Positions 17,495-47,298 of a DNA stretch of 64,000 bases are shown here, piece by piece. Position numbers and translations under genes: made by a program. The notes below the pieces were generated by a model. The model was not told where the DNA came from. It saw only the letters and a program-made list of their open reading frames with translations, and searched no databases. The DNA lies in assembly GCA_037043015.1 (NCBI GenBank), contig CM073322.1, positions 20,612,364-20,676,363 on the forward strand, given 5' to 3'. The stretch comes from Bryum argenteum (lineage: Eukaryota > Streptophyta > Bryopsida > Bryales > Bryaceae). The stretch's first letter is position 1. Every line of letters begins with the position of its first letter.

Positions 17495-17815
17495 CCATGT
17501 AACTGAATGATGCAATGTTTTATACACTTAGAAAAACTATTTGAAGCATTGATTAACAAGTCGCTAGCTCTTTTAGTAGCATTTGTAGACCAACTCTTGG
17601 AGGCTGGAGTATATTAAAAAAGATGAAAAAATTCTGGGCGTGAATTTGGTAAAAAGAGACAGTAGTTTCTACAATATAAAATGCTCCCCCGGCAAACTGC
17701 ATGAGGTGCATACCAAATTCAATAAACTTGAACTTGTACCTGACTTGGAATCTCGGAAATAAACGGGAATCCCCACCAAGGCCATGGCCTTACCACCACC
17801 ACCACGGGGAAAATT
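17495..17815 (+). repeat. RWP-RK-like repeat copy D, upstream part only
   Basis: From CTTACCATGTAACTGAATGATGC it matches 9290-9570 of copy B nearly base by base, through the start-codon region (CCAAGGCCATGGCCTT) and into the ACCACCACC run. There it is interrupted by unrelated A/T-rich DNA that begins with GCATGAGCGTAGAGCGGTG. No RWP exon remains. Confidence 0.65.
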
Positions 17816-18392
17816 GCAGCATGAGCGTAGAGCGGTGAGCGTACTTTTTGGTACTTTTTCGTGAATTTCTCCGCTCTCTTTTCAAATTTTTTTAGGAACA
17901 TAAGAATCCTATTAACATTGATTTTGGTCCAAAAATGATTATTTTTAGCCAGAAGAACACCCCATTTCCGTGGAATAAGCTCCCACTTGCAAATGATTTA
18001 TTTTACATAATATGTGAAATTGGGGCTTTCGTCATTATTTTATCGAAAAAATGATTTAAATAATGAGGATTTATTAAGGTTTAAGTTCACTTCACTTTTA
18101 TTAAATTAACAAAGTTTTTTTTGTTTGGGGTGTAATTAGGGCTGACGTCATCATTTAATTAGAGTTACCTCGCTACAATTATTTAACCCCTAAACTACCA
18201 AGGCCTTCGATTAGGAGATTTGCAATTTCGGGCAGCCTAAGTTAAGATGTTAAACGTAATATCTTTGCCTAAGATTTTTACTGGATGTTCCCTATAGTAC
18301 AAGGTGTATGTGGGAAAATTTGCAAAGTCAAGCTCCACCTATGGGGTTCTTAAACGCAAATTTTAGTTTTCAGCCTTGGGGCTGGCAGAAAA

Positions 18393-18434
<42 letters not shown>

Positions 18435-19778
18435 GAAATCTTTTCTTGATTGATTTTGTACCTAGGTTTCGAAATGACCCAAGTTGAAACTTTTACCAAT
18501 CCTACAAGGGCACCCTGCAAAAATTACAAGAGCTAGATTCAAAGTTTTCTTTGATATTTCAGTTTTTTCTTTCAAAATTTGCCAAATTTGAGATTAGAGA
18601 ATTTTTGAATTTCCTTTTTCTTGAAATTCAAAAATACAAGAAGGTACATACCTGCATGTTGATTTTCTCCCTAAACCATATACAATAAACGTGGTGCATG
18701 TTTTACCAAATGCTTGATTTCTACCTCCTTCTAGTAAATAAATTCCATGAAGGTTCAAAAAGCAAAATGAGGGTCTAAAATTTTGCATGGGCATGCCTAA
18801 CTTAGTTATATACATGGAAAAAATATGAGCTAGATGTTTAAGGTAATAAGCATCACATTTTCCTTTGCACCAAGGTGACTTAGGTCGAATGCTCTAAAAC
18901 CACCAACTTAAGCTTTTTGAGGTTTTTTTAGAATGGTTATTTTTTAGGTATATTTTTCCCATGTAAGAAAGAAATTTTCTCATAGGATGCAAATTTTTTC
19001 AAAATTTAATTCCCATTACATAAATAAATATAAATTTTCAAAGGCAAAAGTACTTGGGGACCCAAAACTAATCTGTAGACTTTCCCATTGTCACACCTAG
19101 CTGGTACAAATTTCCATTCATGATTCGATCCAAAACCACCAACTTTTTTATTGTTTTGATTGGTCAATTTGAATTGAGTGTTCTGACAATGCTAGTTCAG
19201 GCCAAGTGCGGTTATGGGGAGACCTACAGGTTGATACTGGGGGTGGTGGTGGTTTTAGGTACTTCTACCATATGTTTGCTGAAAAAAAAACCGCATCAAC
19301 TTTAAATGTTATGATCTTACAAATGGCTACGATCCAACGAATGAAATTTCAACTACTACTTCTAATAATAGATATCTTCAAGATCATACGGGTGAAAGTT
19401 AAAAAAAGTGTAAAAAATATTCTCAAACTCCAATGTTTACAAGGTGGTATGGAATTGCAAATTTGGAGTTTGGAGCTAACAAAACACCTTGGTAGTTTAG
19501 GGGTTAAGTGCCAAGTTTATATAATTAAATTATGATTCAAAGTTGTCTCATTGTGCCAAACTTGTCTCATCGTGCCAAAGAGAAAACAAATATACGTACA
19601 AAAATTTAAATATTGTTCTACAAAATTTGAATTGAAAATTCTTGAGCAGTGGTCATGTAGATGAAAGAAAAATGAATAAATAATATAGAAATATATTATA
19701 GTAGAACACATCATGGAGAAGAGGCACTAGCACGCCATAGCTGAAAAAAGAAAAACAATACTATATCTCAATTACAAT
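17816..19778. other. A/T-rich non-coding DNA with T-run; partly shared with 58.56-59.10 kb
   Basis: There is a run of about 40 T at 18394-18433. The block around 18260-18340 (GCCTAAGATTTTTACT) recurs in the same orientation at about 58573. The left edge (GCATGAGCGTAGAGCGG) is inverted at the right edge of that second region (TCTACGCTCATGC, about 59075). Both regions abut an ACCACC run of the RWP-RK repeat, so they may be parts of one inserted element. No gene is seen. Confidence 0.4.
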
Positions 19779-22700
19779 TCAAGGTGAACCGGCATCGAGA
19801 CTCTCGTCACACTGAACAGCCTCGATATCGAGAAATCTAAGTACTGTAGAGCAATAACGCCGACGCCGGCCATCTGAAAGGATTGGAGAAGGTGCACGTA
19901 TAAACTCTTGTGCTATATGCTCGGCATATGAAGGCAACGCAAACGAAGTAGGAGGACTGAGGTAGACATTTCGGTTTCGCTGCAATTGATCTTCGAATCC
20001 TATTATTCTAAACAAAAAAAAAATGTTAGTAGAAGAATTACAAAAAATACATTTAGTTCAACGGATAATGAAACGCTGTTTTGAGGCGTACCGTAGTATA
20101 TGCGTCGCGACTTCTTTGTTGGCGCCGCATCTTCTTCCGAATCAGAGTCGGTAGAAGAATCTTCACGCTCCTCTGGTTCCGGTACTGCTTCGGAGTAAGG
20201 CTTCAAAACAGCCTCGAAGATTTCTTCGTCGGGCTCCAGTGCAATAAGATGTCGGTTCGAGCGTTGGCATGCAATGACAGAAGCACCTGCAGTTTGGCCA
20301 ACAACAATTAGCAAAAATATGTTTTAAAAATAATATGGATTGACGAACGGTAGAGCTAGAGAACCTGTACTAGGGCTCCAGTCGCAAATGATATCACGCT
20401 CGTCTGATAGACACTCGACGAAACATTGAATAAAAGATGGGTCCTTCTCACGGGAGCCACGCCAAGGAAGCCCGCTAGGCCGCATAAGCTGCGTATCTGG
20501 TGTTGTGAAATTGGTCAATACATCGTGTGCTTCGGGAAGGATGTCGAGCTCCAAAAACCGCAAACGACGAGTGCGGAAATTGGACCCCTTGCGGGCGTAA
20601 ACCTTGATGTAGAAGCTACGTGTCTGTAAAACAGGTCCAGACAAAAATTTATTATGAATTCTATTGTTAGAGATAAAACTCAAAGAAATCAACGAAGGGA
20701 AGTACCTCTTTGACGGTGGGGATGGAAGAAGCCATTGGAATGGGATTTATGCCCCACCAAACGCGAACGAGGGTGAAACCATAAATCTTGCTTTTACTTG
20801 CAAGCTTTTTCTCAACCTCCTGGTCTTTGGGAAGGAAGACTAGAAGAAGTCCATCATCTGTGAAATGACAATCAGAAAAAGCAAAGAGGTGGTCAAAATA
20901 GTCTGTCTCTCGCTTGTTCCACAATGGAACAGACTTGGGAGAGATAATTGGGACAACCAAGTTGTCCGGGACGTCGGCAATCAAAAGATCAATGCCGGGA
21001 TGCTTAGGCTTCATTCTCATCTTCTCACAAGAGTAAGTACGTCCCACTCCGATCTGAAAGGGAAAAAGAAATTAAACAAATCAGTATCAAAAATTGCGCA
21101 TGAGTTAATAAAATCGAGTAAATAGAACATTTAAGTTTGCATGATATTACCTTGCTAATGTGGTCTACAACCCGAAGGAGTTGCGGTTCCATGAACTTCT
21201 GCTTGTGGGATTTACTTAGCAACCCAGGGAAGCTGCCGTGCTCAAGAAACATAGGTAATATCAACTGAAACGTCGAAGACGAGCCCGCAACTAAACCTTT
21301 CGGGATTGAAATATCTCGGCTGTAGTGTGTAAGTGTGAGAGAAGGATTGGGAGAATGGCGGGAGTCGACATCCATGTTCGAACGACGCGGAGACGGGGGA
21401 TTCGAAACTGCAGGGTGCGAGGCTTGAGTCAAAGCCAAAGGAGCATGCTCGGCGCCTCGAAAATTTGCAACTGCACCTACCGGAGGTGGTGATGAAATCG
21501 GTGGTGACATTGGAGGTGGGGATGCCGCAACGGTGTTGCCGCAACCACGGGCCTTCCTCTTCAACTTTGGCTTTGGAGCGGGTTCAGGCTCAAATGCGGA
21601 CTCGTCCTCCTCGTCATCGTCAATCTCCATAAGAGCTACGCCTGCAAGTGATGGGTCTGAGAGAGGTAAGAGGTCTTTCTCCTCAACCGGAACGTAGTTC
21701 GGTCGGCACTCGAGGAACCAACCACCTGTGAGCAAAACCTCCGGGCTAAACCGTTTGCTCTGGTCATCAGTCCAGAGTTTTGCGACAGGAGTACGAGTAG
21801 GTGGCTTCTTCTCATCGGCTTTCAACTCGATATGATTCGGAATGTGTGAGGCCGGGAGTGCGCCTTTCGCAACAAGCTCGAGCTTCAGGTACCTGCATAT
21901 AAACATAATGATTTTGTTATGCTGAACTATACACAAACAAAATAAAACCAAATTTTATGTCAAGTCGTACGAACCTGTAAAACAAGCGACCTGCAATCTT
22001 CCCACCTTCAAACTTTGCAATCTCAGAGCCTTTGAGGAACCTTGGGCTTGCATCTTCTGGGAGATAATGATTAAAAGCTTTTTTCCACAACAAAGATCTC
22101 CATTTCTCGACATATTGCGCAGGCTTGAGAACAAGGTCGCTCCACTGAATCTGGACATTCTGTTCTGCAACATACTTTTCCACGTACTCCTCGAGAAAAG
22201 TAGACATCTGAAAAAAAGTAGCATGCAATATGTTTCAGACGAAGCGAACATTACAATAAGAAGAAAGAAGATATAATTATAAATAATTTAGAAATCGTCA
22301 TACCTGGGCCCAAAGAGAAGCCCTTGGAAGCCATATGTCAAGCTGAGCGTCCTTCATTGGACGGTTGAGTGGAAATCCGTAGATCTTACGTTCCTCGTCA
22401 TTCCCATTCCACAATTGTAGCCAAAGCCCTTTGAAATGGCTGGAGACTTTGGTAGTACAAATTTTGTGGAGTCGCTCAACAGTCAAATCTAGCTCTTTGT
22501 TTTTGAAAGTAGTGTAGTGTCGGTTGAGCTGCATGGTGCATAAAAAATATTGTTAGGAGAAATAAATGATTAAAGAGAGACTACAAAACTTGAATAGTGT
22601 CAAAGTAAACATGTACCTCTTGTTCCCAGACCAAGCCATTCGCGGGATTGGCGATTGCAACCATCTTGTCGAACCTTTGGCCACGCCAGAACTTGACAGT

Positions 22701-25366
22701 CTTCGTGATTGCCTTCTCCATAGCACTCCAAACTCCATGGCCAGTCCTCTCACTTTCGGGCACAGTCTGGTAATAAGTCGAGCAAGCAGCATCCGAGGCT
22801 GCAGCGCATTGTCTCTGCACGACAACAGTTAAGATGTTAGAAAACAATTATAAAAAACATAATACGCAAGTGATAATTGAACTAAACGTTAGAAACACGT
22901 ACCGCGTAAAGGAATTTAACGAAAATATCCATTGTGAATGGATACCATGATGGTGATCGTGGTTTGTACTCCAAACAAATGTCGTAATCTTCTTTACTTA
23001 TTAACCCCTGAAAAGCAGAAAGTTTGAATTGGCCGAATGTCCGAATTCTTTGCAACTTTGCAATGAGACTGTCTTGAACATGATCGTGTTCCGTTGACCT
23101 GTGTGAAACAGAACAATCATTAAAAACTTGTTTCTCAAATAAAATGAGAATAAAAACAAAATAAAATTATTGATTCAAATGACAACACTTACCAGTTGAC
23201 GTCGTTCATGGCGTTGAGGAGCTTCGAGCATTGTCCACGCCCGTCGAGCATGATACAATCAATAGAAATGTATCAATCAGGATTAGTGGAATGGTATTTT
23301 TCGATATAGCCCATCCAGGCCGTCACACGGTGATTGCCTTCGTACACGTAGAAGTATTTGTTTCGAAACTGATGGAGATCAGTATCGGAAGACAAATATT
23401 CTTCGAAAACGTCATTAGCCGTCTTCCATAGTGGGTTTGACCAAATCGTATCGTCTTCTCGGACCATGAAGTCCTTACCGTCGACGTCGAATGGAGACAC
23501 GTACAGGACTCGATCTCCATCACGATACCCTTTTACGAACTCGTTTGTCAGCATCTCCACGTCGGAACTGACTATCGGGCGCACCTTTGGGTAGATCTTC
23601 AGTCGACACAAAGGAATCATGACACGAGACTTGTTGATCGGTTTGGTGCGAAGGTCGATGAGGACTTTGTTGTAGTCACTCTTCTGTAGCATCCGCATCT
23701 CATTTGCACTCCACATGGGATCTTTATTCTCCAAGTGAGGAGGCATGTGAACAATGCTAAGCTCAACCCCACCAGGAGGCTTTGCGAGTTGTTTGCTGTT
23801 GGAATGCGGTGCTTCATCCGTCGCCTCTCGTGCAATACCTTCACCCTCAACATGTTGATTAGTCTCAAAGTTGGGCTGATCAGGGGATGGAGCACCCAAA
23901 GAAACATCGTCATCCAAATCAACGAAGTCAGGGAAAGTAGGCTGCTGATCCAGTTGGGGAGTACTTGTCGCGGCCCTAATTACTCCCAACTCTTTTTCTT
24001 CAAGTAAGCGTTACTTGGTAGCGGAATCACGACTTACTTTGTTGGTAGCAACCGGCCACAACTTAGCTAACACTGCACATGCCAAGCACACACAATGTTA
24101 GTACTCTTTTTAGTCAAGGTGTCCAACCCACCTTGACTCCCCCAACTCATTACCCGGAACCCGTAAACCGGAACTCCCACAAAACACATGGGCATGCCAC
24201 TTGGTGGCACGGGGCGGCCTTCCACACATGTCCAAGCTCCCAAGGGTGGCACTACTCACCCCCGGAGCTAACCGCCCTTGCATATTGTCCAACTCCCCAC
24301 TAGTCCCCTTCCATTCATGTCTACACTCTCCATTCGGGACATTACCGGAAACCGGCACTACTTTTCACGGGGACTAGTTTGGAGCGGGACACTTTTCCAA
24401 CCCAATGTTTCGGGATGCACACCACAAGCATCCCATAGTGCCCAAGGTGCGGGAGTGAGGCTCCATCCCAAGCCTCACCCCGTAGAGCCACCCCGGCTCT
24501 CCTCGGCACCATGTGGAAGTGAGGAGGGAGACCACTCCTCCTCATAGTACTCTCTGGAGTCTTCGGTAGGCCCCCCCCTCTTGTGTTGAGGGGCCTTCCG
24601 TGACACACTTTTATTTTGGAAGACCACCCGTTTTTGCCTTAGCCTCAAAAACGGGTCGTATCTTCTTCTCGGGCTAACTTGTAGCTCAGTTATCCAAATG
24701 GGACGTGTGAGCCCATTTTCGACATCTACTCTTTGAGTAGATGTCGATAGACTCCTCACTTGTCCCAATCGGAGCTTCTATGTGGAAGCTATGCTCCCTT
24801 GAACATTCAGGGAGTCCCGGGAGGCAGCAGTCCCGGAGTCCCGAAGTCCCGATGCTTTGGAGAGCCATATCTCCCAAAGCATTGCTTTGCTCCTCACGAG
24901 CCTTAGCATTTTGGAAAGCTCTTGTCCAGAGCTTTCCAAAGACATGCAACATGCTGCCATCCAAGAAGGACGACATTTCGAGTCCCGAAAGGTAACACTC
25001 CCGAGTCCCGGAGTGTCCCGGAACGCGCTCCAACTTTGGAGAGCCATATCTCATGACTCACAACTCCAAATCGCGCGTTCTTTGGACCTATGGGTGCGTG
25101 CTTGAACAAGGTTTCCAACCATGTAAAGCACACCACCAAGTTCGTCCCGAGCACGACGCCATTGTGTGCTGTTTGCTCGGGACTCCCCTTAGTCACTTCA
25201 CCTTGTCTCTTGCCAAGCCCGGGACGTCACTCCCGGGGTCCTCTTGGCTCACCACGGTGTTCGGGCATCCTTTTGAAAGGGATGTGACAGTACTTGACCC
25301 GATCTCCACGGGTGCACTCGATGAAGGTGATACTTGCTCCGCCACAGGAACCTCGGATAACGTCAT
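19779..25366 (-). CDS. ParB-like plus DNA-methyltransferase-like multi-exon gene
   Basis: Eleven exons are read (-): 25366-about 25296, about 24000-23193, 23098-22903, 22814-22617, 22528-22303, 22207-21975, 21892-21151, 21053-20706, 20623-20365, 20288-20092 and 19999-19779. All have GT-AG junctions that keep frame, except the undefined exon 1/2 junction; total about 1,150 codons. Exon 2 holds VRPIVSS... and YEGNHRVTAW, like the GxHR motif of ParB/sulfiredoxin-fold proteins. Exon 7 has a Pro-rich linker. Exon 8 has DLLIADVPDN (position of the DPPY motif) and DGLLLVFLP. Exons 9-10 have CDWSPSTGAS and NRHLIALEPDEE (position of the FxGxG motif and following strand). This order is that of permuted beta-class amino-methyltransferases; ParB-methylase fusions are known in phage and bacteria. 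Both catalytic motifs are degenerate, and TGA at 23273-23275 interrupts the frame, so it may be inactive or a pseudogene. ATG 25366 follows TTCTCTTTCAG, so an upstream exon is possible. Confidence 0.6.
24035..24039. repeat. Probable target-site duplication TACTT, left
   Basis: TACTT precedes the TGTTGG terminus; TACTT recurs at 25291-25295. The boundary is uncertain by one base because canonical CA ends at 25289. Confidence 0.55.
24040..25290 (-). mobile_element. Solo LTR (about 1.25 kb) inside the ParB-methylase-like gene
   Basis: It starts TGTTGGTAGCAACC and ends GATGTGACA(G). On the opposite strand it is homologous to 48527-49820 (shared GCTAAC-CTGCACAT block near the end, and an inverted-repeat hairpin ATCTACT...AGTAGAT at about 24722-24746). 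Its ORFs are not conserved between the two copies. It lies between exon 1 and exon 2 of the host gene. Confidence 0.7.
25291..25295. repeat. Probable target-site duplication TACTT, right
   Basis: Pairs with 24035-24039. Confidence 0.55.
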
Positions 25367-25369
25367 CTG

Positions 25370-26100
25370 AAAGAGAAGTAAACAAAGCAAATAATGATTA
25401 AGTACTGAAAATTGAAACAATATTCAAAGTCATATAAAAAATTAAGTGATTAGTAGAACTTAATCACATGAGTGTAAAGAATCTAGTAGACATTGCAAAT
25501 AAAGTCAGAAACTCAATAAGAAATCTTAACAATCCAAAATGAACGTCTACGTGCAAGAATCTCCCATAGCGGTAGCCTAAGACCAAACAACGACCAAATA
25601 ATACAACAATCACACAAAGTTGCATGTCGAATCTGCCACTATCAGTATTGTGCTCCTCATTTCTCAGAAATGATCTCAGCTTTAGGCAAGACCTGCACAT
25701 TCCAACACAAGATTCTATTTAACAAAGTTATCATCACAGGTCAACAATTTCAAATAAAACCACCATAACAAGGAAGGAAGCCATTTGATATATCACTAAA
25801 CTATTAGAATATCAACATAGAAACTGTCCCAACACTCAAGTGAATCGCCACTCTTCGGAGACATGGCAACTATGGCAGCGAAGCAGGGTGCCTGCAATCC
25901 TCTTCCAGAATTCATCAATCCACAAATCAGCAACTTGTTCAAGGCTCTTCTCAACAAGTCCGGACATTTGAATGGCAATGCTCGCGTGATGGGAATTTCC
26001 AGAGCGGCCACTTTGTTGGCTAGTAGAGGGCAATGCAAGGTCGGGCTTGCGAGAGACCATTCACGAGAGCACCTCGGAGGACCAGCAATGGGGGAGCACC
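25370..26100. other. No confident gene; remnant shared with 52.19 kb
   Basis: 25370-25800 shows nothing recognisable. Around 25945 the string CTCAACAAGTC-GGACATTT resembles 52193-52216 downstream of another hairpin copy, so this is part of the same mosaic locus. A minus-strand frame containing VADLWIDEFWKR (about 25920) looks protein-like but I cannot name it. Confidence 0.3.
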
Positions 26101-26103
26101 GAG

Positions 26104-28070
26104 GGGGGAGGGTGCCTGCGTTGGCGCAGCCCTCTCCCGAATTTCCTCGTTCCATCGACCTGGCCTCCAACGCCATCACGGAGACATCGGCCGCTTTCAC
26201 TTGCGACACGTCTTCTAGTCCTTCAAGTAACGAGAGGGAATTCTTCGCGGATGGATTCAATTGAAGGTTCGTTCGAAGACCTTAGGCTGGGACAAGACCA
26301 GTGATGAGAGCACCTCGCCGGTTGGGGATGATGAGGGGGGAGGCTGTCTACGCTGGCGCAGCCCTCTCCCCGAATCTTCACACCATTCCTCACACCAAAT
26401 CTTCACTCTCACGGAGTGCGATGCAAGTCCGGCGATGGAGGAGCAGCAAGGATGAGGGTGCCTGCGCTGGCGCAGCCCTCTCCCCGAATTCCTATCAGTT
26501 GCGAAAAATTCACAGCATGGAGAGAACAACAACCCCGGTCCACTGAAATTCATCAAACAATCGATGAGCACCGATTCTGATTAGAGGAGCGTCTCGACAC
26601 AAGGGAGAAGTGGAAAGGAACTTACAAATAATGGACCAACGTTGAGAGCACCGAGGGGGGTGCCTGTGTTGGCACAACCCTCCCTCGAAATTCATCAAAC
26701 AATCGATCAACACCTTGAATCTAAGCATGAACTAGAGTGGTCCAGAGTTGCGAGCATTGAAGGGGTGTGCCTGCGCTGGCGCAGCCCTCTCCCCGAATCC
26801 TCACACCAGATCTTCACTCTCACGGAGTGCGATGACATATCTCGAAAATTTAAGATTGAGGGGATGAGTAAAGTTTCTACCTGATCGGCACCTTAAAAGC
26901 GCTCCACAGCTCGTTTGAGAGCATCCATGTGCTCCTCGCTTTGGTCACCAGGCGGTAACATTGGAGCTCGGGCTGGAAAGCTTGTGCCCGACCGCACATC
27001 ATACTATTAACCACGCTACTGCAGAGGTTTCGCCACGCCTGTTCGGGATCCACCTATTGCGGCCGGTCATCGCATACTAGAAAACGGAGGCATTTTGTAC
27101 TCCTGGTAGTTCCCATGCTCGAAACTCACCGGATTGGGCGGTGGCTCGGGCGATGACGCATCCATGGAGCTCCCGACGACGACGTAGCGGCGGCGGCTGC
27201 TCTCAGAACCGTAAGAGCTCGGTCATGCTTCATGTGGCCCGGAATTCACTCCACTCCCCGCTCGCCTCTAGTAGTACCACGATGGAGGAGCAGCAAGGAG
27301 GAGGGTGCTGCTTATTGGCGCGACCCTCTCCCCAAGTCCTATCGATTGCGGAAAATTCACAAAGATGAAGAGAAACGACAGAACCCCGTTCCACTGAAAT
27401 TCATCAAACAATCGATGAGCACCGAATCTGATCAGTGGAGCGTCTCGACACAAGGGAGAAGTGGAAAGGAACTTACAAATGATGGACCAGTGTTGAGAGC
27501 ACCGAGGGGGGTGGGGGGTGCCTGCGCTGGCGCAGCCCTCCCCCTAAATTTATCAAACGATCGATCAGCACCTTAAATCTAAGCATGAACTTCAATGGTC
27601 CAGCGTTGCGAGCATTTAAGGGGGGGCCTACGCTGGCGCAGCCCTCTCCCCGAATCTTCACATCATTCCTCATAGGCTCATAGCAGATCTTCACCCTTAC
27701 AAAGTGCGATGCAAGTCCAGCGGTGGAGGAGCAGCGAGGAGGAGGGTGCTTGCGCTGGCGCAGCCCTCTCCCCGAAGTCCTATCAGTTGCGGAAAATTCA
27801 CAGCATGAAGAGAACAGCAACCCCGTTCCACTGAAATTCATCAAACAATCGATGAGCACCGAATCTGATCAGTGGAGCGTCTCGACACAAGGGATAAGTG
27901 GAAAGGAACTTACAAATAATGGACCAGCGTTGAGAGCACCGAGGGGGGTGGGGGGTTTCTGCGCTGGCGCAGCCCTCCCCCTAAATTTATCAAACGATCG
28001 ATCAGCACGTTGAATCTAAGCATAAACTTTAGTGGTCCAGCGTTGCGAGCACCGAAGGGGGTGCCTGCTC
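26104..28070 (+). repeat. Cluster of eleven GC-rich hairpin repeats
   Basis: The core reads GGGAGGG-TGC-CTGCGC-TG-GCGCAG-CCCTCTCCC, a near-perfect stem with a two-base loop, usually preceded by GAGCACCGAGG and followed by CCGAATTC. Copies lie at about 26104-26138, 26334-26375, 26451-26488, 26654-26686, 26761-26797, 27298-27335, 27505-27547, 27619-27652, 27738-27773, 27941-27982 and a partial one at 28050-28070. The copies fall in different reading frames of surrounding ORFs, so the unit is not protein-coding. Further copies are listed separately. Confidence 0.85.
26405..28060 (+). repeat. Tandem array of a roughly 430-440 bp unit
   Basis: Each unit runs: CACGGAGTGCGATG-like start, GGAGGAGCAGC, hairpin, CCTATC(A/G)(A/G)TTGCG-AAAATTCACA, TCATCAAACAATCGATGAGCACC, GTCTCGACACAAGGGA, CTTACAAAT-ATGGACCA, second hairpin, then ATCGATCA-CACC. 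Units start at about 26405, 27275 and 27716; the stretch 26880-27240 between the first two is different DNA. Third-unit sequence ends near 28060. Confidence 0.7.
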
Positions 28071-28434
28071 ATTACTGTTACATTATAAAACTGGTGAATA
28101 CGGTGGTACCAAACATAACGCCCTTACAGTACCATTGCAGCCATTTCAAATCATCATCAAGAGAACACATCCAGAGTAATAAAAGACAATTCACTCCATG
28201 TCATTATCAGAAATAAACGATGACACCCCAGTAAATGTAGCTTTTTTTACTTACAAAGGAATTGGTTGGATAAATTAGGCAGAACATCCCCATGTCAAAT
28301 GCTGATTATTCCATACAAAAGTATGCTTAGAATTAGTGTACACACACTCAACCTAATGGAGTGCAATTGTGATTGGGCTTCAGCAGGATGCCATTGTTTT
28401 GATCCTATTTACTACAACAAAGAAGAGGGTCTAA

Positions 28435-28845
28435 CTAATTCTTACCAGGAATCATAGCAATTTCAACGAAGAGTCTATGCAAACTCTGCGGCTTCGAAAA
28501 GAAGGAAGAATGGTCCCCACTTTTCATTGTATATACCCGCTCTGGAGGGTTCTGTTCAATGAGCTTTTGTTGCAGATCTGGTTAAAATGCTTGATCCTGC
28601 GCTGTTCGTATGTAAAAGCGCCTCACGCTTCCATACTTCTCTGGAGTCAAAGTGATGATTTCCATCGCTGGTGCAAATGGAACTGGTCTTATTGACACCA
28701 TCGCTAACGCTACATCCTGAACAAGCAGGACTTCATCACTCCCTGTTTTGAAAGTTTGAGATGTTGCAGAAAACTTTAATGAAGCTCGGAACGTACCTTG
28801 GTTGGGCTAACATTGAAGAAGAGATCTCTAACTAACGCTCGGTCG
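28435..28845 (-). pseudogene. Plant methylesterase (MES / alpha-beta hydrolase) C-terminal exons, broken
   Basis: Plant MES enzymes are alpha/beta hydrolases that demethylate hormone esters. The minus strand gives RALVRDLFFNVSPTK up to the donor at 28797|GTACG. After an intron ending TTCAG|, exon 28716-28435 gives DVALAMVSIRPVPFAP, TLTPEKYGSVRRFYIRT, then after a stop KLIEQNPPERVYT and DHSSFFSKPQSLHRLFVEIA. This matches the family C-terminus, where the catalytic His lies in the GSDH-like segment (here SGDH). An in-frame TAA at 28582-28584 (where the family has Leu/Thr) breaks it. Upstream the exon runs straight into a hairpin repeat (28846-28885). The N-terminal part with the GHSxGG serine is absent. 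Confidence 0.75.
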
Positions 28846-28885
28846 AGGGGGGAGGGTGCCTGCGCTGGCGCAGCCCTCTCCCCGA
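28846..28885 (+). repeat. GC-rich hairpin repeat abutting a methylesterase exon
   Basis: GGGGGGAGGGTGCCTGCGCT followed by GGCGCAGCCCTCTCCCC. It lies directly against coding-like sequence of the methylesterase remnant, with no spacer on its left side. Confidence 0.85.
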
Positions 28886-29059
28886 ATTCCTCATTCCATC
28901 AACGAGCACCTTCGACGAGGCTGGAACACTGAGGACAGAGATACTTACAAGTCGATACTGGCATTGAATTCAAGTTCAAAGTGTGAGCATCTATAAAAGC
29001 AACAGCCAGACAACTGAGAAACGATTTGAATTCACCGAGTAGTATCTGCTAGTGCAAAC

Positions 29060-29200
29060 CTGTATTTTCTTATCTGGCTCTAAGCTTCGATGATCGCCAG
29101 GATTCTCGTGCACTCTCCTGACAAGCTCACTAAACGGTATTCCACGAAACAAGTGAGGCCTTTGGTCCCCGCCACCTTCCTCGCTGTCACCCCTCTCCAT
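29060..29200 (-). CDS. Unrecognised first exon (47 codons)
   Basis: ATG at 29200 begins MERGDSEEGGGDQ, then LFRGIPFSELVRRVHENPGD and SLEPDKKIQ, ending at a good donor, ATACAG|GTTTGC (29060). The sequence is protein-like and unlike the surrounding repeats. I cannot assign it: no matching second exon is evident before the methylesterase remnant. It may be another captured exon or the start of a gene. Confidence 0.35.
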
Positions 29201-29336
29201 GCCGGAAACCCCAGCTGCTTAATCATTGTGAACGAGCAGGTTTCTCTCTGATGTAGCATACGGAAGGTCGAAATCTAATCTTCCACGAGCGTATGGTGCT
29301 GTAGCGTATGGTGCTGTATCATGACGGTCATGAAAC

Positions 29337-29341
29337 TCAGG
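29337..29341. repeat. Target-site duplication TCAGG, left
   Basis: TCAGG precedes the LTR terminus TGTCGTGAG at 29342 and recurs directly after the other terminus at 47238-47242. Confidence 0.9.
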
Positions 29342-32300
29342 TGTCGTGAGTTACCGAACCGAGGAGGCCAAAATTAACTCAATTTGCCCTTACAACTTAG
29401 CAAAAATGGTCCACCTTCCGGGCAACGTTCCACGGAGATTCTGTGAAGTGTGAAGACAAGACGAAATCCGGATCGATCACCGGTTTAACACTACAACGAC
29501 CAACACATTCTGGTATACCGGATCAGGGAACGCAAGAGTTTAGACCTGACTGGTTCCTTAACCCAAAACCCCAGGGCAACCGGTTGATTCTGATCCGGTT
29601 GCTCTTCTTAACTCAATTATTATTTTGACCGGTTAGGGCATGTTAGTGAGTGATGATTTAATTTAACCTCCGTAAATCCTCGGAGGGGTTCTCCCTGTAA
29701 GTTTTTAACAGAGCACGGAAGGGGCACTCTCCTCCGGTTGATTAGGGTGACTGGAGTTTCACCTATACTCGTATCCCTCTCTCCCTCTCTACCCGGGGTT
29801 CCTCCCTTACAACTGCCGCTACCGCTTGGTTAATTTGCTTAAACGATAGGTCACACCGGCAGCTGTCCGGTTCTCTCCTTCTCTCTGGGCGATACAACTT
29901 GTGATCAGTGCGGTGAGTAGCATCCCACTACCCGCCCACGAGGTTCCTACCACGCACACCGGTAGTTAACTGGCCTCCGGGGTTATGTACAACTCCCGTC
30001 GTGGACTTTCCTCACCCGAATATCCCATCCGGGGGGGTGGTTATGCAGGGTGGTTTTACTCGCCACTCCCAATTCCCCTGTCCAGTCCGGTTGGAGTCAC
30101 AACCTCTCCCCTTTGGCACTCGCTACAACACTTCCAGGACGCTCGGACTCCTCTCACTAGGACCTTTGACTTCCTGACGGAGTCACTCCTCCGGCTATCC
30201 CCTTCTCGGATATCTCAAACTCGTAACTACCAGACCAACAAGGGACTTCCTGTACCCACAACCAGTTTTCAAAACCTCACTTCACACACAAGACCAAGCA
30301 AATCTCTCACACATACACAGCAAGGACGCAAGGTTTCAGATGCAAAATTGGACCTTTACTCACAGGGGGTGGATCGCAGGAAAGACCCGAAGGACTCCGC
30401 AGTCTTGGTAAGTACAGAAGGTTCCGGATTTCCCGGGAACCCTATCAGATCCGGAATTCCCGGGCCTCCGAGATTTCCGGGTGAGTGGCAAAAAGGCATC
30501 TACTATTTCTAGCTACTTCTAACCTAACTAATTACTAACTAAGGTCTTCTTCCGGCGGCGTGGGGCGGCTCGAGGGGTCTGGCGGCGGGATGTTCCTCCT
30601 GGAAGTGCCTGCCTACTCGCGGGGGGGTGTGCCTCTGTGATCGACCAGTGTCGATGTAAAACCTCGGGTTTTACTTTGTGTCCTCCGGCTCTTCCACCGT
30701 CCCGGAGTGCCTTCAACTTTGATGGAGGGGGCGGGGGTTGAACTTCGACTTCTTCCTGAGGCACCACGGGCTCCTCCTGCTGCTCCTGAGGGGCCACGGG
30801 TTCATCCTGATGATCTTGTTCGCCCGGATCTCCCACCTCGTTGACTTGGACCTCCGGGTGAGGTACTACCTCCTCGACTTGCTCGGGAGTCCTGCCTCTT
30901 CTCCTGTGACACCGCCAACCGGGTGCTCATCCGGTTGTTGAGAGGGGTTAACCTCTCCTTCCACCACCTGCTCCACCTTGGAGGGACCGGTTAATCCTGG
31001 TCCATCCGAGGTATCAGCTCCCTGAGGGGGAGTCGCAGCTCGTTCTCCCTCCCTGTCCACCGGAACTCCACCATCAAGTGGAATCCCCTGCTCCTCCGAA
31101 ACGGGCAGGGACACTTCCTCAACCTCCATGGGCACCGGCCCCTCCGTGGGCACCTCTGGGGGTGTGAGAGCCTCCTCTTCCGGAAGGGCTTCCGTCATCT
31201 CCACGTGGGGGAGGGCCCCCAACAACCTACCCGTAAGAGTCCGGAACTCCTTGAGGCACTGATTGATCCCGGTTGTGTGCCTCCTGAGCGGCTCCTCCGA
31301 GGGATTGGGGTGATTCGCCGATCCCAATCCGGGCATCATAGAAGGCCGCCTTCGTCTCGAGCCTCGATCCGGTTGCAACACCTTCGGGATGGAGTGCAAC
31401 ACCGTCTGTCGATGTTCTGCGGCTTCGGAGTGCGACCTCCTCTCTGCTCCTCCACAATCCTCCCGAGGGCTTCCACCTCGGACGTGCCTCCGTGTCCGAG
31501 GGGTCCGGTCCACACTGGACTCCCACGGATGCCTTCTCCTTCGACCGGGCCTTGACAGCACTCCACCTTCTCTCTCCTTAGCCGGGCTGTTTCTCGCTGC
31601 ATCTCCTCGGCTAACTCTGGATACCTCTCCACATTGGGGGTCTGGAAGACCCGCTCGAGTCGCGCCAGGGAGGTGAACAATTGTTCATTCTCCCGATCCA
31701 CCTCCTCCATGGCTAGCCGGATGGGGTGGAGGATACCCTTGCTGGGTATCCGGTAGTAGGGGCGGGGAAGCACCGGGGTGGTGTTTCCCGTTCCGGGGGT
31801 TACGAGTCCTCTATGGGACGACTCCGGAGCTGCCACTGATGCTGGAGTGGCCGGGGCGGGGTCACTCCTCTGCTCCGGTAACTCCAGTCGGGGAGGTGTG
31901 GCCCTCTCCGGAGTGCTCTCCTCCTCCTCTCGAAATGAGCAGACCTTCTCTTCACCTTGGGTTGGCTCTCCGGGATTGGCTCTGCTATCGGGCAGGAGCC
32001 GGATCTTGCATTGGTGCGGGGTCCGGACTTGGGGCCCGCTCCTCCTCGATGGCCCTCGGCTGTGCTACCGGACTCGCTGACCTCTTCCTCTTCTTGGCCT
32101 TGCGCTTCAGGTTGGGCACTCTCCCTCCTGGGGGTCTCTTTCCGGGTGGAGGCACCTCCGCAATGGCCCCTGCTGCAGCCACCTCCTCGTTCGGGATTCC
32201 CTGTTCTACCGGGGGAGGAAGTCGGGCGGGAGAACGTCTCCTCCCAAAACCCGTCGTGTCTTTCCTCCTCACCCCTCGGGATGGTCTTGCCTGTCGAGGT

Positions 32301-33955
32301 GGGGCCTCCTCTTCTTCGTCGTCCTCGTCCCGGTCATCCTCCTCCGCTGACTGGTCTCCACCCGCCTCGGCTATCTCCTCGGCCCTTCGCTGCTGGGCTC
32401 TTGTCCTCCGGATGAGGGGGACGATCTCTTCTTCTTCCTCCTCCTCTTCCTCCTCTGCGTTTGGCATGAACAGGGAGGGCATTGGCTGGGGAGTCCGGGT
32501 AGGGTTCACCCGGCTACTTCCTCCTTCTTGGGTGGCCACCCGGTCTTTGTCTTTGGTCCGGCTTGGCTGGTCCCACCGCTCGCCGCCGGCGAGTGATCGT
32601 TCGGTGACCCCTCCCGGTCGGTGGCCCGGACTTCCTCCATCTCGTCCCCGGACTCGGAAGAGGTCGGCCCTGCGATCTCTGGGATGGGAGGTCGTGCTTC
32701 TCGTGCCAATAGAATATCTCCCGGTCGGTGAGGATGCCGTCACCGTTGATAGAGGTGGAAAATGTAGGGGGCCAGTGGACACCCCTTCTGGTTCCCGATC
32801 TTCATCAACTCCCGCTGCACCACCTCGCTGATGATGTGGTGCCACCCGACCTGCATCCGCCCATCGTAGTTCGCCAGGATGGCCTTCATCAGCTTCACGG
32901 TGCAGGTGGTGGGCTTGTCCGGGCTGAGTATGGGGAGGAGAAACCGGAGGAGGCGCATCACCCGGGGTCCTTGCGATCCTCGGTTTGAATCCGTCCTTCT
33001 CTCCGGCCCCTGCGGAACCGTTCCTCAATCCGTCGTCGCCCTTCTTCTTGATGTAGCCGATCGGGGAGTCCGGAAATTTGTAGGTTGCCCTCCAATGGCG
33101 AGGTCCCCAGTTGTCCGTCTTCCCCCTCAGGGGGTGCGTCACATACATCTCGGGGAAGCGGTGGGTGGCGGTCTCCTCGATGATGGCCTGGTCCGCCAAA
33201 TCCCACGGGGCATCGTCGACCCCGGCGCATCCCATCCGGAGAGGTCCTCCTCGGCTCCGCTTGTGCGCGTGTGGCGGCTCGGGCACCTGCGGCTTCACCG
33301 ACTTGAGGGGGATCGGCATCCCCGGTCGCCATGGGACCACCTCCCTCCTCTTCGGCATTGCTCTGGTTCTACTCTCCTGTAGCTGCCCGGAAATATTCTC
33401 TCCCCGCTTCCCGGACCGATTTACGGTAGAAACCCTACTTCCCGAAACCCTAACCTCTCCAAACTCGCTTTTCAACTCTCTCGGATTGCCGAGCTCTCAA
33501 AACTCGCTCTATCTCTCAAAACGCGCGATTGGAATGGGCGAGAATGGAGGCGGCGGCTCTAATAACAAAGAAACCGGGGTTCTCCTTCCGAGACATCATC
33601 ACCCCGCCGCTCGAGACGTATACACGGGAATTACCCCGGTCATCATTGAGCCGCCGGTGGTTATGTCGGGCGCCCGCGAGTTTTCCGGCCCTTTCTCCGG
33701 GTCGACCGGCAGCCCCAGTCATCAACCCGGTAGGAGAGCCGGTCCATCCGGGCATCTCAGGGTATCAACCGGATATCAACAAGGGTATCCGGTAGGCTCT
33801 AAAATCCCCTAAGGTTAGCCGGAAGGATCCTAACACAAAACTATTATCTACGAACCGGTTTAAGCAGACCGATTTTTATTTCTACTTGCTAAAATTACTC
33901 TTTTACTCCTAATTAATTGCTAAAAACAAAAAATATTGGAGAACAGGGTTCGACA
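29342..33955 (-). repeat. 3' LTR (4614 bp)
   Basis: It is bounded by TGTCGTGAG at the left and GGGTTCGACA at the right (plus-strand reading). It matches the 5' LTR over both its ends and the solo LTR at 5802-9075 inverted. The size is far above the usual few hundred bp to 1.5 kb and is due to an internal ORF of roughly 2.8 kb. Confidence 0.95.
30528..33358 (-). pseudogene. LTR-borne ORF, 3' LTR copy, frameshifted
   Basis: It starts MPKRREVVPWRPGMP at 33358 and continues across several overlapping frames to about 30528. Segments in order: a conserved N-terminal part (PWDLADQAIIEETATHRFP, WRATYKFPDSPIGYIKKKGDD); a region where the frame slips near 32970; a Glu-rich and Arg-rich middle (EEEEEEEEEIVPLIRRTRAQ); a coiled-coil segment; the TTGINQCLKEFRTLTGRLLG block; and an acidic Pro-rich tail. 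It is in the same sense as gag-pol. The antisense frames of up to 330 codons in this area are shadows. At least three frameshifts mean this copy is dead. Confidence 0.6.
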
Positions 33956-33973
33956 TTACCCCTTTCTTAAATG
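33956..33973 (-). promoter_or_regulatory. Polypurine tract of the gypsy element
   Basis: Read on the minus strand, AAGAAAGGGGTAA lies directly before the 3' LTR start TGTCGAACCC. This is where plus-strand DNA synthesis is primed in LTR elements. Confidence 0.8.
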
Positions 33974-34017
33974 TGAGCGTCCCCGCGAACACATTCGTCC
34001 TCTCAACATGATTATCT

Positions 34018-37000
34018 TTAACTGGAATCATCAGCCGAGGCATCCTCCGGTTCGGAACCGGTTTCTGCCTCCGAAATTGATTCTGGGTAGTACCTTTTTA
34101 CTCGAGATCCGTTCGTTCGGGTTGGAAGGGGGTTACCTTGCAAATCCTCCAACTGTAATGACCCATTGGCGAAGACCTCCGTGACTTTGTAAGGTCCGAT
34201 CCACCGGGTGTGGAGTTTTCCGGGGAAGTCCATGAACCGGCTGTCGTACAGTAAGACCAGCGTCTCGGTTCGGATTCCATGATCCAGGGGAAGGCGTCGG
34301 TCATAGATTACCTTACGGTTCTCTTGCTCCACCCGATTTTTCTCAATGGCCTCCTCCCTCAATTCCTCCAAGTTGTCAATGGCCATCAGGCGGGGGGTGT
34401 CATCCTCCACTCTTTCCCCCATCCGGATTGCCATTACCCGGTGAGACTCGATGTTGAGCTCTATGCCGTGGATGCATTCTTGTCCGAACACCATGAAGAA
34501 CGGGGTCTTCCCGGTTGTGGTCTTCTCCGAGGTGTTGTAGGCATGTATGGCGGATGGCAGCTTGCGATCCCAATCCGTCTTGTGTGCCGACACCATCTTG
34601 CTGAGGATTTTGCCAACGATTCCGTTGGACCGCTCCGTAAGACCATTAGCCTTCGGGTTATACGGAGTCGTCTTCCGGTGTTTGATGGCATACCTCTTGG
34701 TCAAATCCTCCACAATGTCGTTGATGAAGTGCTTTCCCCGGTCACTCACCAACTCCAGGGGGTACCCGAAACGCATCATGATCTCTTCGAAAAGGAACCG
34801 GGCTGCTACACGTGCGTCGTTTCCTCTTGTAGCCCGGGCCTCTACCCATTTGGTGGCATAATCCGTGGCCAGGATTATGTACCTCTTCCGATCACTGCTG
34901 ACCGGATTGACTGGACCGATGAAGTCAATCCCCCATTTGACAAAAGGGGCTAAGGGGATGATGGGGGTCAGTGGCCAGTGATGCTTAGTCTGCGGGGCAC
35001 CGGTTCGCTGGCACTGGTCGCAACTCCGGACATACTTCTTCACGTCACGGATGATGTAGGGCCACCAATAACCCGCACTCTTGATTCGGTTCACCGTGCT
35101 CATCGCTGCGAGGTGTCCTCCCGAATCGCCTGCGTGAAGTGCTTCCATCACCGGTTTGCGTTCGTCAGGCTCCAAACAGCGTCGGATGACATCATCAGGT
35201 CCCATCCGGAAAAGGATCCCAGATAGGAGGGTGTAGGGTGCCATTTTGTACTGGAACACGCTCTTCTGGTCCCTTGACATACCTTCCGGATACTCCCCTG
35301 TGTTCAGAAAATCCCTGATGTCCTGATAGTCCGATATGGGTGCCTGTTCAATGTGGAACACTCCTGTGGAGAGGACCGGGGTGCCTTCCGAAAACTCGTC
35401 CGGAAAAAGGCTCGGCACATCCTCAAAAGCTTTGTCCCCGCGCATCCTGGAGAGGTAGTCCGCATTGGAATTGGCTTTTCCGGATTTGACCTTCACTTCG
35501 TAATCGAATTCCTGGAGGAGAAGGATCCACCGGGCAATCCTCCCGGATAGGTCAGCCTTGTTGACAAGGTACTTCAGGGAGTCATGGTCAGTGTGGAACA
35601 CGACTTTGTAACCGAGGAGGTAATGCCGGAACTTCTTGCAGGAGTACACCACCGCTAACGCTTCTCTCTCTGTGGTGGTGTAATTGCGCTCCGCGGAGCT
35701 CATCTGCCTGCTAGCGTAGTAAATCGGGTTCCCCCGTCCTTGGTCGTCCGCTTGCCACAAGATGGCCCCTAGGCACCATCCGGACGCGTCAATGGTCACA
35801 TTGAACTCCTTCTTCCAATCCGGTGGGGAGAGGATTGGAGCGCTGACCAACTGCCTCTTCAGATCCTCGAACGCAGCCTGCCGTTCGGATGTCCACACGA
35901 ACGGCTCGTTGTTCTTCAGCAACTCCGTCAGAGGGGACGCCCTCCGTGCATAGCTGTCGATAAATCTCCGGTAGTACCCGACACAGCCAAGGAATCCTCG
36001 AACTTCCCGCACCGTCCGGGGTGGAGATAGGGTCAGGATTACCTTGACCTTATCTGTGTCCACTTGCAACCCTTGCCGACTAACGACATGTCCTAACAGC
36101 AACCCGGTTTCCATGCCGAAGAAGCATTTACCAGGATGCAGTTTGAGGTCCGTCTCTCTGCAGCGCTGGAAAGTTTGGCGAAGGTGGGAGAGGTGGCTAT
36201 TCCGTTCTCCAAACACCGCGAAGTCATCGATGAAGACTTCCAGGAAATGTCGTAGGAAATCTTTAAAGATGTCAATCATCAACCTCTGGAAGGTGCCCGG
36301 GGCGTTACAAAGTCCGAAGGGCATCCGGTTGAACGCGTAGGTTCCCCATTCCGTGGTGAAGGTGGTCTTCAGCTGATCGCTAGCCCGGATAGATACCTGG
36401 TTGTAACCCGAGAATCCGTCGAGGAAGCTATACAGTTCCCGACCGGCTACATGATCGAGGATGACATCGGTGAAGGGTAAGGGGTAGTAGTCCTTCTTGG
36501 TGGCTGCATTGAGTTTCCGAAAATCCTGGCAGACACGGATCTTCACTTTCCCATCTGCCCCGGTTTTCTTCGGAACAACCACTATCGGAGAAACCCATTC
36601 CGAGTTGTTGACCGGGTAAATGAACCCTGCATCCAGCAACCGATCTATCTCCTCCTTTACTATCAGCGAGTACTTCGGATTCAGCCGGTACTGGCGTTGT
36701 CTGACCGGAACGGCTCCATCGATCAAATCGATTTCATGTTCCCCCAGGTGAGAAGGAATCCCCCTCAGGTCGCTCGGAGTCCAGGCGAACACGTCGGGAT
36801 ACTCCGCCAACAGTTGGCGGCATTCCTCCTTTTCTTCCGCGGTTAACGTCTTCCCCACGTAGAACTTCCGTCCTGCCCGGACTTCCATCTCCTCGTAATC
36901 CTTGGGTGAGACTACGTTCTTGATCCTCTCAGGTCCCTTCTCCTCTGGATCCGGATCCAACGCCCCCCATGACAAGTGACTCCCCCTCCCCATTCGTACA

Positions 37001-37386
37001 GGTTGGGTATCCGGGTTAGTCAGTTGTTGGCGTACCCACTTCTCTGTGAGTGCAGTACATGATTCGCCCAGGGAACGGTCCTCCACATCGGTCTTCCCTT
37101 CCCGGAGTGGGTCCGACTGCAGGAGTGGTGCCTCCTCCGGGACCTGCTCTGGAAATTGGAAATCCCTCTCCACCAATCCGGTAAACTCCTCGACCAGATA
37201 ACACGCCTGGGACTTCGGTTCTGACTCTGACCAGTCCGAGGTGTAATCCTCAGTTGCACTGGTCTCTCCTTCGTGAGCGACGTATTTCCAAGGAATCCGG
37301 ACAGGGGGTCTCCCAACCCGGAATTCCTTCTCTCCCCAGTCTACCACTACCTTGGCCAGATAGAGCCATGGTCGTCCAAGCAGCAT
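34018..37386 (-). CDS. pol: Gypsy pol: reverse transcriptase, RNase H, integrase
   Basis: The 1122-codon frame begins after the protease end (LLGRPWLYLAKVVVDW). RT spans about residues 260-430, with YPLPFTDVILD, SFLDGFSGYNQV, MPFGLCNAPGTFQR and the catalytic FIDDFAVFG (two Asp). RNase H is at about 525-645 (TIDASGWCLGAIL, TEREALAVV, FHTDHDSLKYLV). Integrase is at about 715-1010: an HHCC-type zinc segment (SCDQCQR), then the D,D-35-E core (WGIDFIGPV; LVSDRGKHF; NGLTERSNG). The C-terminus has the usual WIGPYKV segment and an acidic end. The frame is open throughout, so catalytic residues are intact. It lies in a different frame from the protease ORF, which overlaps it by 40 bp. The first Met is probably not the true start; it would be part of a polyprotein. 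Confidence 0.95.
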   Translation of the reverse strand: MLLGRPWLYLAKVVVDWGEKEFRVGRPPVRIPWKYVAHEGETSATEDYTSDWSESEPKSQACYLVEEFTGLVERDFQFPEQVPEEAPLLQSDPLREGKTDVEDRSLGESCTALTEKWVRQQLTNPDTQPVRMGRGSHLSWGALDPDPEEKGPERIKNVVSPKDYEEMEVRAGRKFYVGKTLTAEEKEECRQLLAEYPDVFAWTPSDLRGIPSHLGEHEIDLIDGAVPVRQRQYRLNPKYSLIVKEEIDRLLDAGFIYPVNNSEWVSPIVVVPKKTGADGKVKIRVCQDFRKLNAATKKDYYPLPFTDVILDHVAGRELYSFLDGFSGYNQVSIRASDQLKTTFTTEWGTYAFNRMPFGLCNAPGTFQRLMIDIFKDFLRHFLEVFIDDFAVFGERNSHLSHLRQTFQRCRETDLKLHPGKCFFGMETGLLLGHVVSRQGLQVDTDKVKVILTLSPPRTVREVRGFLGCVGYYRRFIDSYARRASPLTELLKNNEPFVWTSERQAAFEDLKRQLVSAPILSPPDWKKEFNVTIDASGWCLGAILWQADDQGRGNPIYYASRQMSSAERNYTTTEREALAVVYSCKKFRHYLLGYKVVFHTDHDSLKYLVNKADLSGRIARWILLLQEFDYEVKVKSGKANSNADYLSRMRGDKAFEDVPSLFPDEFSEGTPVLSTGVFHIEQAPISDYQDIRDFLNTGEYPEGMSRDQKSVFQYKMAPYTLLSGILFRMGPDDVIRRCLEPDERKPVMEALHAGDSGGHLAAMSTVNRIKSAGYWWPYIIRDVKKYVRSCDQCQRTGAPQTKHHWPLTPIIPLAPFVKWGIDFIGPVNPVSSDRKRYIILATDYATKWVEARATRGNDARVAARFLFEEIMMRFGYPLELVSDRGKHFINDIVEDLTKRYAIKHRKTTPYNPKANGLTERSNGIVGKILSKMVSAHKTDWDRKLPSAIHAYNTSEKTTTGKTPFFMVFGQECIHGIELNIESHRVMAIRMGERVEDDTPRLMAIDNLEELREEAIEKNRVEQENRKVIYDRRLPLDHGIRTETLVLLYDSRFMDFPGKLHTRWIGPYKVTEVFANGSLQLEDLQGNPLPTRTNGSRVKRYYPESISEAETGSEPEDASADDSS

Positions 37387-37857: not shown

Positions 37858-37862
37858 AATAT
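37858..37862. repeat. Target-site duplication AATAT, left of the nested LTR
   Basis: AATAT precedes TGTTATCC at 37863; the same 5 bp follow GGTAACA at 38654-38658. Confidence 0.85.
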
Positions 37863-42814: not shown

Positions 42815-42815
42815 C

Positions 42816-47242: not shown

Positions 47243-47298
47243 TACAGACAGCGAGAACAGAAGTGGCAGATGCGAGACCGGCATTTAAGGAGCACCGA

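Follow-up and report, generated by a model that had tools for sequence, protein, structure and literature searches.

The 64,000-nt stretch of the Bryum argenteum genome analysed here (assembly GCA_037043015.1, contig CM073322.1; hereafter the window) carries a whole copy of a MULE-like DNA transposon, and the intron-rich gene at 19779..25366, which joins a ParB-like domain to a methyltransferase-like domain, is an accessory gene of this transposon and not a gene of the plant host. Coordinates without a contig name are positions in the window, and genome-wide searches were run in the same assembly (258.8 Mb). Copies of the gene fall into subfamilies: among the best 150 matches to its exon 2, those of subfamily A are window-like (78-100% identity) and the others are 61-69% identical. 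The window copy is composed as follows.

17796..17805: left target-site duplication, CCACCACCAC, lying in a CAC repeat, its exact length ambiguous here
17806..59095: whole transposon copy, about 41.3 kb, with the ParB-methyltransferase gene on the left and the transposase gene on the right, delimited by shared ends and duplications
17806..17840, plus strand: left terminus, GGGGAAAATTGCAGCATGAGCGTAGAGCGGTGAGC, shared with A-type copies
25375..29350: noncoding repeat region upstream of the ParB-methyltransferase gene with eight TKCG-N4-CGMA sites, six of them identical and reading TGCGCTGGCGCA on the plus strand
47313..52152: four further TKCG-N4-CGMA sites (at 47313, 47746, 51918 and 52141)
53551..53982, minus strand: small basic open reading frame (ORF) lying past the repeat region and before the transposase gene, with a homologous ORF in copies L030 and L035
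54544..58200, plus strand: transposase gene, recognised from its ORFs and from homology to other copies; frame broken after 56547
59057..59095, minus strand: right terminus, sharing GCATGAGCGTAGAGCG in inverted orientation with the left end
59096..59105: right target-site duplication, CCACCACCAC, from copy comparison

The element has the precise ends and target duplications of a cut-and-paste DNA transposon. A sharp end, ...GCTGCAACTTTCCCC, is common to the A-type copies and falls at 17806 in the window; of the nine A-type copies listed, eight have a similar left end, which in L017 shows several changes; the sequence of L015 stops short of it. Both ends of the window copy carry an imperfect short terminal inverted repeat, GCATGAGCGTAGAGCG, which was found 0 times in shuffles, and similar ends occur in L010 and L012. 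Both ends could be compared for three copies, and each of the three has an exact 10-bp duplication around it: TGTACAACTC in L010, GTTCCATGAC in L012 and CCACCACCAC in the window. An element without a transposase, or one with Helitron-like ends (one sharp end, no long inverted repeat), was also considered and was ruled out by the far end and the duplications. L012 is 17185 bp long (C6:18586464-18603648) and L010 12630 bp; the window copy owes its 41.3 kb to nested insertions, chief among them a retrotransposon-rich block at about 29.3-47.2 kb. The order within the element is transposase gene reading outward, small basic ORF, repeat region and ParB-methyltransferase gene reading outward, the two genes being divergent.

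The transposase carries the blocks FDHVKR...FMADNAQANW...ERTCYFHW, and a CxC...CxH segment near 58.0 kb is SWIM-like by eye, with a similar segment at the end of L029. The protein encoded by the window ORFs at 54.5-58.1 kb is also encoded at most 4 kb upstream of L010 and L012, on the opposite strand. A total of 141 relatives was found, with no precomputed Pfam domain among the 120 listed. In an alignment of 19 transposases, FDH, FMAD and ERTCxFHW-type blocks are kept, a conserved D, D and CxFHW can be recognised by eye, and PF00872 (Mutator family) is matched at E=0.034 in two of the 19 members, with no other Pfam support. According to the accessible text of PMC6446971, the target duplications of MULEs measure 8-11 bp; as the 10-bp duplications fall within this range and are accompanied by the transposase features, we call the element MULE-like, not a proven MULE. 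Its short, imperfect terminal inverted repeats, its extra ORFs and, judged by eye, its DDE-like residues and SWIM-like segment are further likenesses to the MULEs described there. The extra motifs reported for MULEs include PMD, FAR1, SET, OTU and unknown ORFs, and methyltransferase is absent from the main text of PMC6446971 as accessible to us.

The transposase and the accessory gene are paired well beyond the window. Genome-wide, a 171-residue piece of the transposase returned 1052 candidates, the dispersed ParB-like exon-2 piece 995 and exon 8 942; the best 150 of each were taken as matches, and such candidates do not equal confirmed copies. An exon-8 match lies within 25 kb in divergent orientation for 44 of the best 150 transposase matches (random mean 1.42, maximum 5); four of the remainder are tandem, none is convergent and 102 have no exon-8 match among those listed.

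In the window copy the coding structure of the ParB-methyltransferase gene runs on the minus strand, with the ATG at 25366 and the stop at 19779 as its outer limits.

23193..25366, minus strand: exon 2, ParB-like, split by a solo long terminal repeat (LTR) and containing an in-frame TGA (from splicing and copy comparison)
23966..25289: solo-LTR-like insertion in exon 2, TGTC...GACA, absent from other A copies
22903..23098, minus strand: exon 3 (spliced translation, as for exons 4 to 7)
22617..22814, minus strand: exon 4
22304..22528, minus strand: exon 5
21975..22207, minus strand: exon 6
21151..21892, minus strand: exon 7, with a low-complexity linker
20706..21053, minus strand: exon 8, motif IV region, with IDLLIADVPDN instead of DPPY (translation and alignment, as for exons 9 and 10)
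20365..20623, minus strand: exon 9, start of motif I, ...IICDWSPSTG
20051..20286, minus strand: exon 10, remainder of motif I, ASVIACQRSNRHLIALEPDEE
19779..19979, minus strand: exon 11 and stop (translation), with a similar C-terminal block in the Ceratodon proteins P0001 and P0002

The first-pass annotation of this locus, made from the sequence alone, had described an 11-exon gene whose splice junctions keep the frame, the junction between exons 1 and 2 being undefined. Exons 3 to 11 (23098 down to 19779) do form an open frame of 878 residues followed by a stop, GT-AG borders are present at every junction from exon 2 through exon 11, and the motifs quoted at the time are all found in the translation. 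The gene has no such exon 1, however, and exon 2 is not intact. Exon 2 begins at the ATG at 25366, directly after a splice acceptor, and is interrupted by the solo-LTR-like insertion, which is 1.32 kb long, is flanked by a 5-bp duplication (GTACT at 23961-23965 and 25290-25294) and covers the former exon 1; position 23967 is joined directly to 25289 in 10 of the 11 A-type copies, the upstream flank of L017 being unaligned. This insertion accounts for the undefined junction. Exon 2 also contains a TGA at 23275-23273, which is TGG in nine of ten readable A copies and TCG in L016. The accessory frame of the window copy is broken by the solo LTR and this TGA, and its transposase frame is broken as well.

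Other copies of the gene are in better condition. L026, of subfamily B, has a stop-free run of 1132 codons that starts at the ATG of exon 2 and continues to the end of exon 10 (exon 11 excluded). In a six-copy alignment of B, the frame of L022 and L024 is lost from a C run of variable length and that of L021 at the C run plus an earlier stop, and L025 and L028 are more heavily interrupted than these three; a 3' boundary of the B family placed at position 7806 of L022 was dropped, as the break is present in L022 only. The nine A copies compared under the projected splice model all show at least one stop or frameshift, though rearrangement of some copies (L009, L010) made the projection itself err and accounts for part of these. 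Between subfamilies, nonsynonymous divergence (dN) in the exon-2 domain is 0.07-0.33 and synonymous divergence (dS) is 2.2, 2.6 or saturated; for one transposase piece dN is 0.092 and dS 2.8. Among the best 150 exon-8 matches, 119 of the 127 at or below 56% identity have no internal stop, a list biased towards good copies by being made of the best-scoring matches. To judge from these sequences, the open frame of L026 together with low dN and high dS is more than chance, and purifying selection seems to have acted on the proteins over a long period in several lineages of the element. The only named relatives returned were the two proteins of Ceratodon purpureus, with 45% identity over 67% of the query, and the exon-2 domain recurs in conserved form in 47 other proteins of the database.

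Upstream of the accessory gene, most copies read carry an array of a palindromic site. Counts of 12-mers in the upstream noncoding regions gave a different near-palindrome in most subfamilies, with cores TGCGC-CA-GCGCA in A, TTCGT-CA-ACGAA in B and TTCGG-CA-CCGAA in L020, and further variants in 12 regions added after the first counts; most cores fit TKCG-N4-CGMA, the exceptions being ATGGCCAGCCAT (L023) and AGATTAAAATCT (L046). The 33 upstream regions counted (110.9 kb) contain 166 such sites against a shuffle mean of 5.8; since some sites within an array are duplicates of each other, the 166 do not stand for independent events. No site occurs in 15 gene bodies (66 kb). At least two sites are present in 27 of the 33 regions. 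Inverted half-sites at spacers 0-3 and 5-10 number 3-10 each, and among inverted spacings only that of 4 nt is enriched. The content of the arrays changes fast between copies, L027 having almost no array. Tandem Repeats Finder did not pick up the array, its units being dispersed. In the window, the sequence around the four outlying sites (47313..52152), beyond the nested retrotransposon, partly aligns to other copies.

The placement of the sites in the genome shows the core to be private to its subfamily. Fifty listed sites of each type were compared with the listed copies, near meaning within 8 kb for the A and B types. For A-type sites, 35 of 50 lie near a listed A copy and none near others; for B-type sites, 25 of 50 have a listed non-A copy nearby and none has an A copy nearby (random means 0.2-0.9). 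A further pattern, TGCGTCGACGCA, has 554 sites in the genome against 4 for its backwards control, and 16 of the 50 listed sites are upstream of four listed copies and none downstream (random 1.31, maximum 6), a test that is partly independent, one of the four copies (L051, with 2 of the 16 sites) having been in the derivation set. Among palindromes used as controls, GTTGCCTYRAGGCAAC has no sites and TGACTGCAGTCA 32 scattered ones. In C1:1-1525300, 32 of 100 sites with the 4-nt spacer lie in tight groups, compared with 1 of 42 for N3 and 0 of 24 for N5.

Two dense groups on C1 have no ParB or methyltransferase match nearby among the matches listed, namely eight sites of TGCGGTGCCGCA at C1:955853-957375, and nine of TTCGTCGACGAA with one TTCGTCAACGAA at C1:1423896-1426537; perhaps these are arrays of unscored copies. 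The B-type site in the upstream regions of L022, L026 and L028 reads GTTTCGT-YR-ACGAAAC, which in its outer bases appears to resemble the bacterial parS palindrome.

Arrays of TKCG-N4-CGMA upstream of a transposon-borne ParB-methyltransferase gene are new here. Given the element, its conserved and divergently placed accessory gene and, in most copies read, the arrays, the explanation that we favour, and hold to be fairly probable, is that the accessory protein binds the array and thereby aids the element. Binding itself, as far as sequence can suggest it, has slightly better than even chances; it would occur through the ParB-like part, probably as a dimer with one half-site for each subunit, so that each subfamily would address its own DNA. 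The CpG in each half-site would render this binding sensitive to host methylation. Once bound, the protein may keep the element from being silenced or help to mobilise it, and its methyltransferase-like part would act without normal catalysis. An anti-silencing role, suggested by analogy, is a tentative proposition.

The analogy is with VANC proteins of the Arabidopsis VANDAL elements. In the accessible text of PMC5735166 and PMC10398659, the noncoding DNA of the element contains tandem repeats that change fast and carry arrays of a short motif; VANC binds this motif and induces loss of silencing marks there. As in that system, the moss element has an accessory gene of a MULE-like transposon and a short arrayed motif that differs between related families, and its arrays look like candidate binding sites co-evolving with the protein of the element. 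The two differ in that the VANC21 motifs, YAGTATTAY, stand in one orientation (PMC5735166, as accessible), whereas the moss sites are palindromic. The word methyltransferase is absent from PMC5735166, and VANC is likened here by logic, not by sequence.

The second precedent is algal. The first-pass annotation knew of no described plant system of this kind, and that there is no described system is only partly right: the accessible text of PMC12477816 describes the same domain pair, a ParB-like and a DNA-methyltransferase domain, in the protein of Sola1-1_Ec32 of Ectocarpus and in transposon proteins cited from green and red algae, and proposes for such proteins that they may attach to the transposon encoding them and alter it epigenetically. 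Among the papers listed in the literature searches, it is the only one in which we found a transposon-borne ParB-methyltransferase protein. Both domains lie in one large protein there (1104 aa in Sola1-1_Ec32), encoded by the element on the strand opposite to the transposase, as in the moss family with its weak ParB half; the likeness is one of described architecture and orientation, not of sequence. The moss element differs in being another type of transposon (MULE-like, with 10-bp duplications), in its bryophyte host and in its degenerate motif IV, and an inverted-repeat array is not mentioned for the algal element in the accessible text. Our proposal combines the two precedents, array binding from VANC and the self-binding ParB-methyltransferase from Ectocarpus. 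We would go further only speculatively, and with a little less confidence than for the anti-silencing role itself, to suggest that a land-plant MULE lineage independently reached VANC-like self-addressing anti-silencing with a ParB-like domain, a dead methyltransferase and its own TKCG-N4-CGMA operator in each subfamily.

Several observations weigh against the explanation that the protein binds its array and aids the element. The motif was derived from the same regions that give the count of 166; six of the 33 regions have fewer than two sites, three of them none (L047, L048, L052); and 25 of the 50 listed B-type sites and 15 of the 50 listed A-type sites are near no copy among those listed. 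There is also a weaker excess of everted half-sites with no spacer (33) and of directly repeated ones 10 nt apart (40), and a count of 87 was obtained for KTCG, a control half-site overlapping TTCG. Genome-wide, TKCG and CGMA are found 12112 times at N4, 7277 at N3 and 7126 at N5, and the backwards control AMGC-N4-GCKT also peaks at this spacer, with 12343 against 8463 (N3) and 8824 (N5); the raw genome-wide counts are therefore indecisive, the excess of the control perhaps being due to another repeat family. Repeats that are passively carried would also be private to subfamilies. The transposase has no match to Pfam MULE (PF10551) or SWIM domains, in which it differs from known MULEs. Finally, on sequence evidence the ParB assignment of the exon-2 domain is weak: none of 30 exon-2-domain sequences matches PF02195 or another Pfam ParB family.

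The proposal of a ParB-like domain in the early residues is carried by the GNHR motif, which with VRP is near-invariant in the 30-sequence alignment, and by the ParB-like PHROG phrog_1033, which 14 of the 30 sequences match weakly (best E=0.0021); the expected PF02195 match is the part that fell away. Searched against the PDB, the 30-row profile of the exon-2 domain matched nothing, a 5-row profile matched nothing but unrelated entries (E>=0.24), and hhalign against five phage ParB proteins gave no match (probability 0.4). One match of the ParB-like query to a phage C5-methyltransferase (H1, E=9) was judged to be chance.

The methyltransferase-like half, also named in the first-pass annotation, is better supported, mostly through relatives of the window copy. 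PF01555 is matched at E=0.00097 by the L022 domain, 0.0024 by Ceratodon P0001, 0.034 by P0002 and only 0.14 by the window-type domain, none of these reaching the gathering score, and PHROG methyltransferases match the L022-type domain at 4e-5. With hhalign, a five-sequence family profile aligned to four phage methyltransferases with a probability of 94.6 over motif I, against 0.4 for an unrelated control. By tblastn, the P0001 domain matched an annotated adenine methyltransferase of Agrobacterium phage Atu_ph07 (E=3e-3, 22.9% identity) over residues 13-252 of 262 (92%) in beta-class order; this search gave 287 records at E<=10, and 12 of 15 among the matches listed are annotated as methylase or methyltransferase. 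A match to FAN1_HTH (E=0.0053, below the cut-off) occurs in the window-type domain and not in the L022 or Ceratodon proteins. Pattern-based scans with tblastn found no relatives in viral contigs with either domain, or in a prokaryote genome collection with the methyltransferase domain, and a viral or prokaryotic donor was dropped on these results.

Beta-class amino-methyltransferases are expected to have a catalytic [DNS]PP[YFW] tetrapeptide and a motif I of the form FxGxG. As in members of this class (PF01555; DpnA, phage Dam-like), the moss proteins have the motif IV region before motif I, and to this extent the reading of permuted amino-methyltransferase motifs held; the DPPY and FxGxG motifs themselves are not there. 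Each of the six sequences compared has DVPD, DVPE or DAPE as its tetrapeptide, the aromatic residue and one of the prolines are missing from motif IV in all five aligned sequences (subfamilies A, B and D and the two from Ceratodon) and in L023, and motif I reads D-x-S-x-S-T-G-A-S, with STG in place of GxG. As the tetrapeptide is DVP[DE]/DAPE throughout, we think it more likely that a methyltransferase fold serves as a module with weak or no catalysis than that the protein efficiently writes N6-methyladenine (6mA) or N4-methylcytosine (4mC). These degenerate motifs are what speaks against a view that follows the proposal for the algal proteins, in which the accessory protein would be a working N6A/N4C methyltransferase, binding the element that encodes it and marking it. 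That view gains from the domain order, from the alignment of motif I to real methyltransferases, from the adenine at the outer position of each half-site (there by construction of the pattern) and from the 4mC/6mA activity and self-modification predicted for the Ectocarpus protein in the accessible text of PMC12477816; on balance we regard it as unlikely.

The ParB-like part and the palindromic sites near the gene recall ParB and parS, with the GNHR-type motif as a further likeness and the lack of a significant profile match to the five phage ParB proteins as a difference. A partition-complex-like co-factor of transposition, which would gather element DNA at the array for excision or reinsertion and have no role in silencing, would suit parS-type loading, and some MULEs do carry a second protein, mudrB. 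We nevertheless give such a co-factor a low probability, as the array is internal, upstream of the gene, and not at the termini, and none of the ORFs read was recognised as ParA-like, no search having been aimed at ParA. The arrays might also act as promoter or enhancer repeats to which the transposase, the product of the small ORF or some host factor binds, with the accessory protein doing something else. Their position upstream of the gene and their fast-changing content would fit this; a host factor would hardly be expected to favour a different core in each subfamily, and the idea is improbable to us. That the gene is an ordinary single host gene, a eukaryotic intron-bearing gene of the plant as first supposed, has its intron-rich structure and long conserved reading frame in its favour and is practically excluded, being refuted for the window copy by the roughly 1000 candidates for each tested piece, the transposon ends, the target duplications and the co-travelling transposase; a domesticated relative in single copy may exist elsewhere.

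If the array-binding explanation is correct, the moss family offers a testable protein-DNA pair, with one family, one half-site and many natural variants, for transposon self-marking or protection. It would also add to the algae a land-plant-type genome in which transposon-borne ParB-methyltransferase proteins abound, and would mean that transposons have long kept a bacterial DNA-modification architecture without its usual catalytic motif.

Other sequences lie in and around the window copy. Ty3/gypsy-like pol and gag-like ORFs, recognised by eye, are nested in the element at 34018-37386 and 38989-40626 (both on the minus strand), and related repeat ORFs recur at 45-47 kb. A Peroxidase-like fragment at 49747-50127 (minus strand; Pfam 3.9e-11) lies inside the transposon copy, possibly as a captured gene fragment or a separate insertion. 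To the left, an ORF with a HUN (HPC2/ubinuclein) domain at 16815-17477 (plus strand; Pfam 1.2e-12) ends about 330 bp outside the left end and probably belongs to a host gene that the element entered or landed next to. To the right, an ABC-2 type transporter membrane domain at 63288-63788 (minus strand; Pfam 4.5e-29) likely belongs to a host ABC transporter gene.

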